33,418 nucleotides of DNA from Phycisphaerales bacterium (GTDB lineage Bacteria; Planctomycetota; Phycisphaerae; Sedimentisphaerales; Anaerobacaceae). How positions within the stretch are numbered: position 1 is the stretch's first letter; every line of letters begins with the position of its first letter. Where the stretch lies: NCBI GenBank assembly GCA_020346325.1, contig CP070782.1, positions 3,547,465-3,580,882 on the forward strand, in the 5' to 3' direction. The notes beneath the pieces were generated by a model. That model was not told where the DNA came from and searched no databases. It saw only the letters and a program-made list of their open reading frames with translations. Shown here piece after piece: positions 1,276 through 10,419 of the stretch. A program made the translations under genes and the position numbers.

Positions 1276-1883
1276 GCGAAGAGCGTATCAGAGAACTGCT
1301 TCAGAATGCGGATCGCGCCGCGGGGCCCCCTCTGTTTGGCCCGATCAGGGCGGTGGACCTTCACCAGCGGCTTCGCCGGCGCAGGTTCGTGTGGGTAGGG
1401 ATACCGGCGGCCGCGGCGGCGGTCCTGCTCTTGGGTTTCGGGGCGTGGACGCTCCGCTTCAGGCTCGGAGTGCCCGCATCCCCACACCCGGATAGAATCG
1501 CTTCTCTGGAAGAGCAGGTCAGACAATTGCACGCTCAGACGGATGCGGCGTTGAAACTCGTTCAAGAGGTCCTGGCCCAGGAACGGCAGCAGCAGCGATT
1601 GGAGGCACTTGAAGCGAAGCTGGCGAGCATTCCGGACCCGACGGCAGAGATTGAGCGACAGGTCGACAGGACGGCCTTCATGCTGTTCTACGAGGCGGAC
1701 AAACTCTATCGGGAGTTGAACCAGACCGAATCGGCCGTCGAGGCGTACGAACAGGTTATCCGCCTGTTCCCGGATAATCAGTGGGCCCACGTCGCGCGGG
1801 AGCGACTGGCTGAAATCAAGCAAGTACGTATCAACAAATCCAATACGGAAGGAGACGCAAAATGCGGACCGCAAAGTGTCTAG
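1272..1883 (+). CDS. Membrane-anchored coiled-coil/TPR-like protein, putative anti-sigma or sensor partner
   Basis: A 203-residue protein whose ATG overlaps the sigma factor stop. It has a short cytoplasmic N-terminus (about 1-38), one transmembrane helix (about 39-60, preceded by RLRRRR), then an extracytoplasmic coiled coil (about 73-130, rich in Q, E and L) and a C-terminal segment resembling one TPR unit (ESAVEAYEQVIRLFPDNQWA, about residues 150-170). Position and topology fit a membrane partner of the ECF factor. It lacks the zinc-binding HxxxCxxC motif of ZAS-type anti-sigma factors, so calling it an anti-sigma factor is inference from operon order. Its last 22 bases overlap the next gene. 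Confidence 0.7.
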   Translation: MSEERIRELLQNADRAAGPPLFGPIRAVDLHQRLRRRRFVWVGIPAAAAAVLLLGFGAWTLRFRLGVPASPHPDRIASLEEQVRQLHAQTDAALKLVQEVLAQERQQQRLEALEAKLASIPDPTAEIERQVDRTAFMLFYEADKLYRELNQTESAVEAYEQVIRLFPDNQWAHVARERLAEIKQVRINKSNTEGDAKCGPQSV

Positions 1884-3775
1884 TTATTGTTCTGGTCTCG
1901 GCGGTGGTTTTCGGAGCCGAACGTCGCGTCTCGAACACGAGACAAGCCAGTTGCATCGTGAGGATCACGGCCGATCGTGAAATCATCCCACTGAACCCGC
2001 AGACCGTCAGCCATCTGATACACAGTTCGGCCGTGGTCGGCAAGGCCGCCCGCGAAGTGTTGGGGCTTGGTGTCGATGCTACTGCCCAACTTGGCAACGG
2101 CATTGAGATCGAATGGCTCGCACAAGCAGTTGGCCCCATCGTGCATCCACCCGAGCCACGCATATACGGGGGGAAAACCACGGGTTCGACCGGCCAGTCC
2201 CGTCGCGAAGGGCATTCCGAGATGGCGAGGCAATTGGCAGAACTTCATGACGATCGTTATGTGGAGAAGCTGCCCTCTGAAGACTCCGACCCGACGAAGG
2301 CGGACGCTCAGACAGATGCCCCAGGAATGATGATGGGTGGCATGGGAGGCATGATGGGTGGAGGCGGTATGAGTGGTGGCATGGGAGGCATGATGGGCGG
2401 AGGCGGCATGGGGGGCGGCATGGGAGGCATGATGGGCGGAGGCGGCATGGGCGGGGGCATGGGAGGTATGAGCAGCATGGGCGGCATGGGGGGAATGATG
2501 GGTGGCATGGGAGGTATGAGCGGGATGGGAGGCATCGGCGGCATGGGGGGCATGATGGGCGGAATGTACGGCGGCCCAGTTCGGGCAGCGCCGGCCGGCG
2601 GTGCCCAGCAGAATGCCACGCTCAGATTCTCGGTCCGGCTGCCCGAGGATGCACAGCCGGCGGCAAAAGAGTTTCTCGCAGCGCTGGTGGAAAACCTCAG
2701 AGTGACATTGAGCAGTGGGTACCAGGAACATGTCAGCCAACTCGAGACCCTGACAGATCTGGCCGAAGCACGGCGGCGAGATGCCGAGACCAGTGTCGAG
2801 ATCGTAATGGGCATCCGCTCACCGGAACGGCAGCTCATCGAAGGGCACCTTAACACGATCGTTGATCTATCCATACTGTCGCCGGAGATGCCGTTCTCAG
2901 AGGCCATTGAACACCTCAGAAATGCGGTGGAGCCACCGCTGCAGATCGTCGTACTCTGGAAGGAACTGCTCGAGAGTTGTGAGATTGAGCCCACCACGCC
3001 GATCGATATGGACGGTCTGCCCCAGGTCAAGCTCGAGACGGCTCTGAAGGTACTCATTGAGGCGGTCAGTGGCGGATTCAGTGACATCTCCTACCAGATC
3101 GAGGACGATGTCATCGTCATCCGAGAAGAGGAATTACAGGAGCCACAGGCGGTATCGACCGGGCTAGGCGCTGAGGCTGATGTCAGAGGCTTGGCGGCTC
3201 GACGACGTGAGTTGGCGCGCCGCCTGCAACAATTGGATATGGGCTTCGCCATGACAGAAGCCCGCCGCGCGGCGATTGAGAGGCAAATCATCGCAACTCG
3301 CGAAGAGACGGCGCAGAGGATGGAGGCAGATTCCGTTATCCGTGAAATGCAGAATCTGGTAGAGATGAGCCAGGCTCACCTGGAGACACTCACCAAAAGG
3401 TTCCAGGCAGGGAGTCTGGGCGCAACGGAAGTCGCTACGGCCAGAGAGAACTTGACACGAGCCAAGATCGAACTGGCGCGTCGTCGGGAAGAGTTGGCTA
3501 ATGCCGCTGGGGGTGGCCAACTCAAGGAGTTCAACAGCGAGTTGAGCCGCATGGCCATCGATACGGCCGAGAAAAGGGCTGAACTGGAATTCCTGCGCCG
3601 ACAACTCGCGGAGACAGAAGATCAGTTGGCCCAGGCCTCGACCTTTGACCCCCGAGCCGCACGAATTCGAACCGCCCGCGAGGCTCTGGATCTCGCCGAG
3701 GCTCACGTGACCCGGCTGAGAGCCCGACTGGCCAGTCTCCAGCCGCCAACGGTCACGGTGATCGGGGCCGACTGA
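1862..3775 (+). CDS. Secreted Gly/Met-rich protein with secretin-like and coiled-coil regions
   Basis: A 637-residue exported protein and third member of the sigma cassette; its ATG lies 22 bases inside the previous gene. Order of parts: signal peptide (about 1-19, ending VVFGA); a globular part to about 150; an extreme Gly/Met low-complexity tract (about 155-238); a region of about 255-330 with helices; a domain of about 330-425 (FSEAIEHLRNAVEPPLQIVV, then LETALKVLIEAVSGG and a DDVIVIREEE strand) that resembles the short STN/secretin N-type domains common in planctomycete exported proteins; and a long coiled coil (about 440-625) similar in texture to TolC-type efflux proteins. I do not recognise a named family for the whole. 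The same-operon sigma factor suggests an envelope-linked regulon, but the function is unknown. Confidence 0.75.
   Translation: MRTAKCLVIVLVSAVVFGAERRVSNTRQASCIVRITADREIIPLNPQTVSHLIHSSAVVGKAAREVLGLGVDATAQLGNGIEIEWLAQAVGPIVHPPEPRIYGGKTTGSTGQSRREGHSEMARQLAELHDDRYVEKLPSEDSDPTKADAQTDAPGMMMGGMGGMMGGGGMSGGMGGMMGGGGMGGGMGGMMGGGGMGGGMGGMSSMGGMGGMMGGMGGMSGMGGIGGMGGMMGGMYGGPVRAAPAGGAQQNATLRFSVRLPEDAQPAAKEFLAALVENLRVTLSSGYQEHVSQLETLTDLAEARRRDAETSVEIVMGIRSPERQLIEGHLNTIVDLSILSPEMPFSEAIEHLRNAVEPPLQIVVLWKELLESCEIEPTTPIDMDGLPQVKLETALKVLIEAVSGGFSDISYQIEDDVIVIREEELQEPQAVSTGLGAEADVRGLAARRRELARRLQQLDMGFAMTEARRAAIERQIIATREETAQRMEADSVIREMQNLVEMSQAHLETLTKRFQAGSLGATEVATARENLTRAKIELARRREELANAAGGGQLKEFNSELSRMAIDTAEKRAELEFLRRQLAETEDQLAQASTFDPRAARIRTAREALDLAEAHVTRLRARLASLQPPTVTVIGAD
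2324..2575 (+). repeat. Gly-Met low-complexity coding repeat
   Basis: An imperfect tandem repeat built from units such as GGMGGMMGGGGM (DNA units of about 36 bases around atgggaggcatgatgggcgg, repeated at about 2341, 2380, 2425 and 2460, then degenerating). It encodes about 84 residues that are nearly all Gly and Met, with a few Ser, one Ile and one Tyr. Third-position variation among units (ggc, gga, ggt, ggg) shows it is not a recent pure expansion. Similar Gly/Met tails occur on GroEL and Met-rich stretches on copper-handling proteins, but no function can be read from sequence here. Confidence 0.9.
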
Positions 3776-3855: not shown

Positions 3856-4548
3856 TCAGGTCTTGAGTCTCTTCCGGACTTTGTCCGAGGCCAGCTCGCG
3901 CAGGGCATCGGCGGCGATCCACCGCGCCGAACTGGAATCGAGCTTGTGGATCTGCTGCGCTGTCCGAATCGCCAGTTCGTTCAGATGGCAATTGCGTTTT
4001 CCGATCTGGCGCAGCGCCCAGTTGATGCCCTTCTTGACGAAATTGCGCTCGTCGATGGCGTGCCGGACAAGGTATGGCAGAAACTGCTCGAAGCGCTCGT
4101 CCGGCGCCTCCTTATCGTGGACGGCCAGCGTCGCCATGAGCACGAAGCCGGCCCGCTTGACGTATTCGGCCTCGCGCTCGGGCCACTCGAGCGCCTTGTC
4201 CCAGCCATAGGGTGTCTTGTCGAACAGACAGCCACAGGCCGCATCACACAGGGCCCACGAATTGAAATCCTGGGCCCATCGTTCCATCTGGCGCCGCGTG
4301 ACCTCGGCGGGGTCGTCCACCAGTGTGGCGAGAAGGCGAGCATCATGCACGCCGCTCCGCCAGAGTTGATCGGCGAGCTTGTGGTCCTTCCCGACCTCTT
4401 TGGCCAGGGCCCGCAACTTGGGGGCGGATACCCCCCAAGCATCCGGGACATGGACCCCGAACCGTGCCATCCCTGCGACGGCCTGCGGATTGCCTAAAGT
4501 CTTCAGTCGTCTAAGAACCTCACGATACCTGCATTCATCCGCTGTCAT
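3856..4548 (-). CDS. AlkD-like DNA alkylation repair protein
   Basis: A 230-residue HEAT-repeat protein of the AlkC/AlkD family, which removes N3- and N7-alkylated purines from DNA without base flipping. Supporting motifs are SWALCD (Trp98 and Asp102, the spacing of the catalytic Trp/Asp pair of AlkD) and [17 protein letters not shown] (Trp177, third aromatic of the cleft). The length fits the family. The frame extends six codons further to 4566, but the ATG at 4548 is preceded by AAGGAGA at a good distance and the upstream ATG has no Shine-Dalgarno, so 4548 is chosen. It stands alone, divergent from the metallo-hydrolase gene. No SOS or Ada operator was recognised in the 199-bp divergent region. 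Confidence 0.88.
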
Positions 4549-4747
4549 CGCATGTCTCCTTCCCATCGCACAAGATCCACTGCCCCTTATACTTCAGAGA
4601 CAACAACCTGCCAATGAAGCAGAAAAACGATTGTGCACTCCGATCCAGGCGGTTCTGATGGGGAGGATGTCGCCACGACCGGCGGCCATCGGCCCGCAGC
4701 GTAGGCCAGCGGCCGTCAGAGAACTATCCTGTCGCAAGGAGGTTGTT

Positions 4748-5479
4748 ATGAACACGGTGACCGAGATCGCCCCCGACGGATATCGCATATCCACGTTCGT
4801 CTCGCAGGCGAATCTTCAGTTCAACCAGTTCCTCGTCCGAGACGACGAACCGCTGCTGTTTCATACGGGAATGAGGCGTTTGTTCCCAACCGTTCGCGAA
4901 GCCGTTGCCAAGCTAATCGATCCCGGTATGATACGCTGGATTGGCTTCAGCCATTTCGAGGCCGACGAGTGTGGCGCGTTGACCGAATGGCAGAATCTGG
5001 CACCGAATGCCACCGCAGTGTGCAGCCTGGTCGCCAAGTCGGTTAGCGTCGACGATGTGGTCGCCGTTCGGCCCGCTCAGGCGCTCTGCGACGGCGAGGT
5101 TCTCACGACGGGAAAACATCGCTTCCAGTTCCTCCAGACGCCGCAGGTCCCTCATGCATGGGATGCGGGTCTGCTTTTCGAAGAGACGCAACGCCTGCTC
5201 TTGTGCTCGGATCTCTTCCACCAGAACGGCGACGTTGAGGCCGTGACGGAATCCGACGTCGTCGGTCGATTCAAAGACATGCTTATCGAGTATCAGCAAG
5301 GACCATTTGCCAACTAGCTGCCTTATGCCAGCCACACGGAACAAACGCTCCAGCGTCTGGCGTCGCTCCGGCCCGGGATTCTGGCCGCCATGCATGGCTC
5401 GACGTTCGTTGGTGATGGAGACAAAGCGCTTCACGACCTCTCTGAAGCGATGCAAGAAGTCCTCGGCGATTGTCACTAG
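4748..5479 (+). pseudogene. Flavodiiron-like metallo-beta-lactamase-fold protein interrupted by an in-frame TAG
   Basis: The gene starts at ATG 4748 behind AAGGAGG. Its first 189 codons encode an ODP-type metallo-beta-lactamase fold, as in the diiron domain of flavodiiron proteins: H69-x-E71-x-D73 in [12 protein letters not shown], His136 in VPHAWDAG and Asp155 in [13 protein letters not shown] at 5315-5317 ends this frame after PFAN. Directly after it, in the same frame and with no indel, 53 more codons run to 5476: LPYASHTEQTLQRLASLRPG, then an AAMHGSTFVGDG segment containing His216, the expected last metal ligand. Relatives usually have an aromatic residue (Tyr) at the stop position, so one base change from TAT or TAC explains it. 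The 189-residue product alone should lack a complete metal site. It is either a recent nonsense pseudogene, a sequence error, or read through. Confidence 0.8.
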
Positions 5480-5618: not shown

Positions 5619-5921
5619 CTATGACGTTGCTGGTTCATACACCGGCTCCTGGTGGTGCGCAAGGATCTCGTCAATCTCCTTCAAGGAGAACTTGTTCAAC
5701 TGGACAATCTTGGCCTGAGGCCGGTAGACAGGCGGAAGAATGAACAGGGCATCCTTTTTGCTGTCCACCTCGACAATGATCCAGGCCTTGTGCTCGCCGT
5801 CGAGGCACCCGAAGTCGGCATGCGTCAGGTAATGGGAACCGGTACTGAGCAGGACTTTGACGGCGAGGGCACACTCATTCGTTTCCGGCCCGTGCGGAAC
5901 TTCAATCAGGAACCTTGCCAT
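5619..5921 (-). CDS. Small conserved protein of unknown function (MARFLIEVPH type)
   Basis: A 100-residue soluble protein with a ferredoxin-like or dimeric alpha-beta-barrel texture: strand MARFLIEVPH, helix ECALAVKVLLSTGSH, then THADFGCLDGEHKAWIIVEV, a KKDALFILPP segment and a final KFSLKEIDEILAHHQ helix. I recognise the pattern as a recurring small conserved protein, possibly near DUF3303-like proteins, but cannot assign a function. ATG 5921 follows GGGAGGT eight bases upstream, so the start is secure. It is convergent with the interrupted metallo-hydrolase and followed upstream by a 193-bp gap with no recognised signal. Confidence 0.7.
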   Translation of the reverse strand: MARFLIEVPHGPETNECALAVKVLLSTGSHYLTHADFGCLDGEHKAWIIVEVDSKKDALFILPPVYRPQAKIVQLNKFSLKEIDEILAHHQEPVYEPATS

Positions 5922-7753: not shown

Positions 7754-8314
7754 CTACTTTGGCTCCACCGAAACATCCACCTTGGTACCGGCGATCAAGG
7801 TATTGAAGGTGGGTGAATACTCCGCGAGCCGCTTTAACCTCTCCATGTTCTCCACGTCGGCCTTGACTTTGAATTTCACGCGAATATTTGTGTAGCCCTT
7901 CGGAACATCTTCAGCCAGCCCCAGGAAACCACGGAGATCGATGTCGCCTTCAACCTGTGATTCCAACTCCTGGATATGAATGTCGCGAACGGCGGCGTGA
8001 GCGACCATGCTCGTTGTCAGGCAACCTGCCAGCGAATTCAACAAGTGCTCGACTGGATTGGCGCCCCCGTCCTCTCCCGCCAGAATGGCCGGTTCGTCAC
8101 AGTCGATTTCAAAGGGATGCTTGTGCGGCTGCTCCTCTTTGGCGCCATAGAAACTGGTGATCGTAGTGCGGTTGTGGTTGCCGTCAATCCACTTGTTATG
8201 CACGTGAAACCTGCACTTGGCGAGTCCAGGATCGTTCTTGATAGCACTGATAGTGCCCTGGAGGGTTTCTATATCGATGCCATTGACCGCATGAAGCGTC
8301 TGCTGCGCTGCCAT
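7754..8314 (-). CDS. OsmC/Ohr-family protein lacking the second redox cysteine
   Basis: A 186-residue protein of the OsmC superfamily, whose members reduce organic hydroperoxides with a cysteine pair. The core motif GGANPVEHLLNSLAGCLTTS (residues 83-102) supplies Cys98, the first redox cysteine position. At the place where OsmC and Ohr carry the partner cysteine, this protein reads AEYSPTFNTL with Ser167, so it belongs to the single-cysteine OsmC-like branch and may not act as a classic peroxidase. AAGGAG precedes ATG 8314. Its neighbours, a methanethiol oxidase upstream and a flavin oxidase downstream on the same strand, suggest an oxidative or sulfur-stress context, though gaps of over 200 bp leave operon structure open. 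Confidence 0.88.
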   Translation of the reverse strand: MAAQQTLHAVNGIDIETLQGTISAIKNDPGLAKCRFHVHNKWIDGNHNRTTITSFYGAKEEQPHKHPFEIDCDEPAILAGEDGGANPVEHLLNSLAGCLTTSMVAHAAVRDIHIQELESQVEGDIDLRGFLGLAEDVPKGYTNIRVKFKVKADVENMERLKRLAEYSPTFNTLIAGTKVDVSVEPK

Positions 8315-8558: not shown

Positions 8559-10058
8559 TCAAACCCAAATGTCCGCGGTCGAGTCCCCATTCGGAAAACG
8601 AATCTCATGGCCTCGCGCCGGACCACCCGGTTCGGCTCCCAAATCCACACAGAACTCTTTGTTCCAAGACATGCCGCCATTGTCGGGGTCGCAATCCAGT
8701 TGAAGCATCAGGGAACCGTGCCTGGCGATGTCCGGGTAGAACTGATTGTCCCAACTGCTGTAGAGCGAACTGGTGAAGTAGAGACGTTTGCCATCCAGGC
8801 TAAGTTGAAGCATCTGGGGCCCGCCCGCCGGCTTCTTTCCGTTGATCGTTCCACCTTTGCCCAACAGGCCGTTGATCCAGACCTGCCCGGTCAGCTTGGG
8901 GTGACTCGGATCGGTGATATCATACTGACGAATGTCTCCATGGAGCCAATTCGCCAGATACAGGAAGCGGTCGTCCAAAGACAACAGGATGTCAGTGACC
9001 AACCCGGGTACGGGGTCGGCCTGGCCTTCAACCTGCACCGGCTCCACCTGAATGACCTTTTCGGCAGTCCACTTTCCGTCCTTCTTGCAGAAGTGCCAGA
9101 TGGAGCTGCTCAACGCCGCGCAAACGAACCCGTGGTGACTGTCCGGGTTGTGGTGAAACCGGACTTCCAAGGGCACCATGCCTTCGACCCCCAAGTCGAT
9201 GGTCTGGATGCGCTCGCGTGTCGTCCAATCCCAGAAGTGCAGGCGCTGGCCGTACTTGCCTGCTTTTGCGTCCTCCATGCGGAATCCGGGACCATAAGTC
9301 GTCGGCGCGGCAAATTCGCTACTGACCATCACATTGTGTCGTGGCTGATACCAGAAATCATAGTTGTAGGGCATTCCTTCGGTGCTCTTCTCCCACCGGC
9401 CGGCAATCCTAAACTTCTCGTCCACAATGAGGAAGCCGCCAGGCGAGTTTCCCTGACCATCCCCCAGTGCCGAAATGATGATCCTTCCGTCAGGAGCGCA
9501 ATGTACCGTGTGGAGAGCTGACAGATTCACCTTGCGTCGCACTTCCTGACCTTCGATGACCTTGTGCAGCCTCGGCTTAGACGGTGTGCTCACATCCACA
9601 AAGTGGATATTTGCGGAGTTCAAACCCGGAATAACCAGGTATTGACGCACCTTTCCGGGCTTCCCATGACAACTGCTGCACACATTCCAACCATAGTGAT
9701 GGAGCTCATCGGCCAAGAACGGCATAGGTAGTCGGTCGATGACCTGACTGTACGTTTTGGATCCCGGGTCCAAGTCCACCGTCAGGAGGGAGTCGGGCAG
9801 GGGTCGCCCGGTTGCCGTATAGATCGCTGGCACATACCCCAGAACCTCGCGTTCGGATTGCATGGCAGCCCTCGGCGATGGGTATGTCGCACAACCTTCC
9901 GGGTGATGTAAATGAGAATCCTCTGCCGTGCCCGTGCTTGGCCGAGCGAAAACCGCGCCAGGCAGCGCCACGAAGGCACCGCCGGCAGCTAGGAACTTGC
10001 GGCGATCCACTGGGGTTCCAGGATCGTCGCTCGTACAACGTGTCTGCTGTTCCGCCAT
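8559..10058 (-). CDS. Tat-exported methanethiol oxidase (selenium-binding protein SBP56 family)
   Basis: A 499-residue protein of the SBP56 family, whose bacterial members oxidise methanethiol to formaldehyde, H2S and H2O2 with copper. It has a twin-arginine signal (VDRRKFLAAGG at about 18-27, followed by a hydrophobic stretch ending GAVFA), so it should act outside the cytoplasm. Family motifs include NVCSSCHGKPGK (Cys127-Cys130, the SBP signature), the HTVHCAPDGRI blade, EVRFHHNPDSHHGFV with its histidine cluster, and the C-terminal RGHEIRFPNGDSTADIW. The frame is open 33 codons further upstream, but ATG 10058 follows AGGGAGGTGA, which decides the start. No dedicated copper chaperone or SCO gene lies next to it, unlike some characterised loci. 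Confidence 0.92.
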   Translation of the reverse strand: MAEQQTRCTSDDPGTPVDRRKFLAAGGAFVALPGAVFARPSTGTAEDSHLHHPEGCATYPSPRAAMQSEREVLGYVPAIYTATGRPLPDSLLTVDLDPGSKTYSQVIDRLPMPFLADELHHYGWNVCSSCHGKPGKVRQYLVIPGLNSANIHFVDVSTPSKPRLHKVIEGQEVRRKVNLSALHTVHCAPDGRIIISALGDGQGNSPGGFLIVDEKFRIAGRWEKSTEGMPYNYDFWYQPRHNVMVSSEFAAPTTYGPGFRMEDAKAGKYGQRLHFWDWTTRERIQTIDLGVEGMVPLEVRFHHNPDSHHGFVCAALSSSIWHFCKKDGKWTAEKVIQVEPVQVEGQADPVPGLVTDILLSLDDRFLYLANWLHGDIRQYDITDPSHPKLTGQVWINGLLGKGGTINGKKPAGGPQMLQLSLDGKRLYFTSSLYSSWDNQFYPDIARHGSLMLQLDCDPDNGGMSWNKEFCVDLGAEPGGPARGHEIRFPNGDSTADIWV

Positions 10059-10419
10059 GATCGTCACCTCCCTTTCTCTTGAAAGGTGGGTGCCGACCTC
10101 GAGGTCGGCCCATTCTTTGAGTACCTTAGACGCGCCAAGGGTGCACGAAGTCACCACCGATGGTGTCCACTCTCAGAAACGGTGCTGTCTCAAGGTGTAA
10201 TTAGCCTTCGTCCATCATTGTTCCAAGCCCACACCGATAAAGGCGCTCAACTCAATAGCGGGAACTGTTACGGATCGAGGCGGGGCGGGTTCCCAGGAAA
10301 TTAAAGAAAACCTATAGGTTTATTGCGGTTGCCAGACAAACAAAGGGCGGGCCATGGGCCGACCTGTCCGGGTATTGCTTGTCAGCGCAGTAGATCTCGG
10401 AGTCAGCACTCGCAGCGGA
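10059..10419. other. Intergenic region upstream of the methanethiol oxidase gene, with a perfect palindrome
   Basis: A 361-bp stretch between purH and the methanethiol oxidase gene, both on the minus strand, so it holds the oxidase promoter and any purH terminator. The clearest element is AAACCTATAGGTTT at 10308-10321, a perfect 14-bp palindrome 250 bp upstream of the oxidase start. No convincing gene or intrinsic terminator was seen. A transcription factor site is possible but unproven. Confidence 0.4.

Follow-up and report, generated by a model that had tools for sequence, protein, structure and literature searches.

A probable recent nonsense mutation in an ODP-type diiron protein gene of a Phycisphaerales bacterium

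A gene for an ODP-type (oxygen-binding diiron protein) metallo-beta-lactamase-fold protein in this Phycisphaerales genome is interrupted by an in-frame TAG at positions 5315-5317 of the window, the whole stretch of 33,418 nucleotides that was analyzed. We consider it probable that a recent single-base nonsense mutation inactivated the gene, which would have been a horizontally acquired accessory. Translation would begin normally and end after 189 residues. The resulting product would be missing His216 along with a central beta strand and the C-terminal helix, and is expected to be incapable of proper folding and of holding a diiron site. That the 52 codons past the stop are still protein-like would reflect the short time available for their decay. 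The features on which this reading draws are listed below with their positions in the window.

3856-4566, minus strand: DNA alkylation repair gene, the left neighbor, 70-72% identical in four genus mates
4736-4742, plus strand: Shine-Dalgarno-like AAGGAGG ahead of the ATG (direct reading)
4748-5314, plus strand: pre-stop part of the ODP-type metallo-beta-lactamase-fold gene, 189 residues, with H69, E71, D73, H136 and D155 (Pfam PF19583, E = 4.6e-11 for this part alone; 40-sequence alignment)
5315-5317, plus strand: in-frame TAG, where homologues have Tyr190 (sequence and homologue comparison)
5318-5473, plus strand: same-frame continuation of 52 codons, with P192-Y193, M215-H216-G217, core strand 211-214 and C-terminal helix 224-242 (alignment and model)
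5474-5476, plus strand: end of the frame (TAG), close to the ends of homologues (sequence and homologue comparison)
5619-5921, minus strand: conserved gene of 100 residues, the right neighbor, 70-71% identical in two genus mates

Read directly on the sequence, the TAG at 5315-5317 lies in frame with the ATG at 4748, which has a good Shine-Dalgarno sequence ahead of it, and comes after 189 codons. It is followed by 52 sense codons, free of indels, until the second TAG, and apart from the first TAG the single frame from 4748 to 5476 is open. At the local base composition, an open stretch of this length past the stop has a chance probability of about 0.17. Its openness is thus unremarkable, and the reality of a broken gene rests on homology. 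A scan of contigs identified 80 homologous loci, 55-77% identical where measured, in Acidobacteria, Nitrospira, Nostoc, Pseudomonas, Planctomycetota and other hosts from several phyla. The read-through frame aligns over its whole length with 81 homologues of about 240 residues, none of which has a stop at or near residue 190. The original prediction held that the TAG splits one indel-free frame and that a Tyr codon was to be expected in its place. The sequence and the end-to-end alignment bear out the first point, and residue 190 is indeed Tyr in 78 of the 81 homologues, with the remaining three carrying Tyr one residue later.

Against the PF19583 model (ODP family beta lactamase; curated cut-off, 27.2 bits), the read-through frame scored 51.6 bits over residues 23-217, and the truncated product, at 43.4 bits, also exceeded the cut-off. 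All diiron ligands of the H-x-E-x-D, H, D, H pattern, which is that of the ODP family, are present in the read-through frame. In a 40-sequence alignment H69, E71, D73, H136, D155 and H216 are invariant, which agrees with the residue numbers originally assigned to the ligands (His136, Asp155, His216 and the H-x-E-x-D motif). H216 falls beyond the stop, so that truncation removes the last His ligand, as had been proposed. An AlphaFold model of the full-length protein, built with the same number of aligned sequences, has a mean pLDDT of 89.7, and its residues 190-243 include the core strand at 211-214 and the helix at 224-242. According to this model, the truncated product would miss both of these elements together with H216. 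The 189-residue product was itself modeled as a single sequence without an alignment, and the resulting pLDDT of 41 is hence uninformative about folding.

In both sequence and fold, the metallo-beta-lactamase domain was matched best by flavodiiron proteins (ROO, 1e5d; TM0755, 1vme; FprA; flavorubredoxin), with a profile E value of 1.1e-15 and a TM score of 0.81 for 1e5d. Flavodiiron proteins also have a flavodoxin domain, whereas no C-terminal, FMN-binding flavodoxin domain was found in the query, whose frame ends at 242 residues and matches as a metallo-beta-lactamase domain alone. In this respect it resembles the ODPs of Treponema denticola and Thermotoga maritima (PDB 6qnm, 6r9n, 6qrq and 6qwo; PF19583), which are likewise stand-alone metallo-beta-lactamase folds of about 240-255 residues. 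These structures matched with a profile E value of 3.6e-9 and TM scores of 0.69-0.75 over the query, at only about 16-19% identity, and unlike them the copy described here has a stop at residue 190. By profile and fold, the gene product is a stand-alone ODP-type protein of the metallo-beta-lactamase fold and a putative binder of iron and O2. The earlier designation of the protein as flavodiiron-like therefore holds as far as homology is concerned, and is refined to a stand-alone ODP type without the flavodoxin domain. For the homologues in Nitrospira, Nostoc, Pseudomonas, Acidobacteria and other groups there is no close solved relative, since all fold matches lie at or below about 20% identity.

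In T. denticola, ODP senses oxygen for chemotaxis and shows genetic coupling to a chemoreceptor homologue (PMC7666581). In contrast, no neighboring gene common across phyla was found for the ODP-type gene studied here, and gene neighbors thus give no clue to its function. The fold shared with T. denticola ODP at low identity makes O2 or redox sensing by the query protein a lead only.

Protein-like constraint is evident on both sides of the stop, as had been claimed. All of the 61 positions with at least 95% conservation are kept, except for position 190 itself, and this includes each of the 11 such positions that follow it, His216 among them. In comparisons with seven near homologues, pN was 0.17-0.30 and pS 0.64-0.86 after the stop; values before the stop were similar in kind, with pN well under pS in both parts. 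On a fixed tree, the tip branch was 1.54 times as long after the stop as before it, compared with a ratio of 1.37 for the whole tree, and ranked 16th of 50 tips, which is not unusually fast. As a rough bound, any unconstrained period would have taken up at most about one quarter of that branch. A slightly low pairwise identity to the nearest homologues hinted at faster evolution past the stop, but the tree did not support it. The locus has the marks of a recent pseudogene: one lesion in a sequence that is conserved elsewhere, and homologues that are intact. Constraint before and after the stop would be expected just as much from continued synthesis of full-length protein.

The neighborhood of the gene bears on its history. 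In four genus mates a second FAD oxidase gene adjoins the alkylation repair gene and there is no ODP-type gene; in two genus mates with the 100-residue gene, the second FAD oxidase gene is flanked by that gene and the alkylation repair gene. A fifth genus mate is without the entire block from a secreted-protein gene to purH. The ODP-type gene was thus found in none of the five, and no remnant of the FAD oxidase of the genus mates was found at the ODP-type site. Among the family genomes searched, only one other (G012) has the gene, at 59% identity and beside an OsmC gene, and the nearest homologues occur in other, mostly unrelated groups. The gene was probably acquired horizontally and is probably dispensable, judging from this distribution, and for a dispensable acquired gene loss by point mutation is unsurprising. 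Most other genes of the window are present in the genus mates in largely the same order, many of them aligned over most of their length, which indicates that the contig belongs to this genome.

Several other features of the block were recorded. An SBP56/methanethiol oxidase-like gene at 8559-10157 lies between the OsmC gene and purH, which adjoin each other in the genus mates, and is a second lineage-specific insertion. The OsmC-like protein (7754-8314) gave a below-cut-off match to the NCBIfam model for OsmC-related (seleno)protein. Positions 1862-3775 encode a protein of 637 residues with a long Gly-Met repeat (GGMGGMMGGGGMGGGM...) and no Pfam match; its conservation in genus mates mainly concerns the C-terminal part.

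If the TAG is not a property of the organism, it would be an error of assembly or consensus, or else an allele of a minor strain that became fixed in a metagenome consensus, and most cells would carry an intact gene. A single wrong base or a minor allele of this kind is possible, and we give this explanation a distinctly smaller share of the probability than inactivation by mutation. It draws on the state of the genome, which looks like a metagenome assembly: many contigs are joined by runs of 100 N, completeness is 75.8%, and the window coincides exactly with a single contig flanked by two such runs, which makes gene order beyond it unreliable. (The runs lie just outside both ends of the window, at G000:C1:3547365-3547464 and from 3580883.) The otherwise perfect preservation of the gene is also in keeping with an error. 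Against it, comparison of about 90 genes, or 36,000 codons, with their counterparts in genus mates and in one further genome of the family revealed no further nonsense mutation or frameshift, and many other genes of the window align with those of genus mates over most of their length. The raw list in this comparison held 18 stops, and inspection of ORF positions by eye placed all but the target either in matches antisense to a longer ORF or ahead of a start codon; no stops in ABC-transporter genes were present among the matches listed. A generally error-rich assembly was rejected as a cause, since a completeness of 75.8% fits missing sequence, in the form of the 100-N runs and missing tRNAs, and not frame breaks.

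The remaining alternatives suppose that the TAG is real and that the distal codons are nevertheless used. Decoding of TAG was approached through the suppressor tRNA-CUA and pyrrolysine genes that the original prediction had singled out. No tRNA with anticodon CUA was found among the 34 tRNA genes identified in this incomplete genome, and the genome contains no match to PylS above the cut-off, with one far below it, as in 12 of 14 control genomes. Release factor 1 (RF1) is intact, and 64 of the 180 long ORFs of coding composition end in TAG. The same tRNA search returned 44 genes in a genus mate, among them tRNAs for Tyr and Phe, neither of which was recovered whole in the present genome. When the tRNA-Tyr of a genus mate served as query, the sole tRNA-Tyr remnant found was a 3′ half directly after a run of 100 N (L279:1501-1532; G000:C1:1530284-1530315), its anticodon half lost to the contig break. 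With tRNA-Tyr cut at a contig end and other tRNAs absent from the assembly, the search for a CUA tRNA is incomplete. The available evidence indicates that TAG acts as an ordinary stop in this organism, and a suppressor tRNA is unlikely. Reassignment of TAG, to pyrrolysine or otherwise, has little beyond the identity of the codon to suggest it and is the least probable of all the explanations, given the intact RF1, the PylS result, the Tyr of homologues and the common use of TAG as a terminator.

Readthrough at a useful level, by near-cognate decoding or a natural amber suppressor, would let the TAG lower expression and yield a little full-length protein. Constraint past the stop is undiminished, the unreadable anticodon of tRNA-Tyr and the missing tRNAs leave room for a suppressor, and Belinky et al. 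(2021; PMC7918605) report that in-frame stop codons under purifying selection are widespread among bacteria. The present case is like theirs in having an isolated TAG within an otherwise constrained gene; their set, however, relies on stops common to at least two species, and here the stop occurs in one genome only. The stop that programmed readthrough would conserve among relatives is absent from all 81 homologues, which argues against conserved recoding. The RNA downstream of the stop showed no stable structure (z = +1.5, weaker than shuffles), and a strong suppressor would be costly where about one in three coding ORFs terminates with TAG; the lack of a CUA anticodon among the tRNAs found and the intact RF1 point the same way. 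We regard readthrough as unlikely, and slightly more so its particular form in which a tolerated, partly decoded amber codon would serve as an expression damper on a low-level diiron protein. That the gene works in two pieces, the C-terminal part having its own start, is very improbable: the C-terminal frame is intact, but the first in-frame ATG past the stop is Met215 itself, the split would cut one compact domain in the model, and no homologue is split.

Of the three origins first offered for the lesion, namely a recent event, a sequence error or readthrough, a recent nonsense mutation is the most likely, given that the other genes tested are unbroken and TAG reassignment is disfavored. We infer that the TAG is truly present in the organism and allows little full-length protein to be made, and that the gene is of horizontal origin and its lesion of recent age. 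Loss of function by point mutation is ordinary in bacteria, and the lesion, if real, would be one more example of an accessory, horizontally acquired gene lost in this way. If full-length protein is still made, the locus would instead provide a clean natural case of amber readthrough, in which the residue at the stop position is known from relatives.
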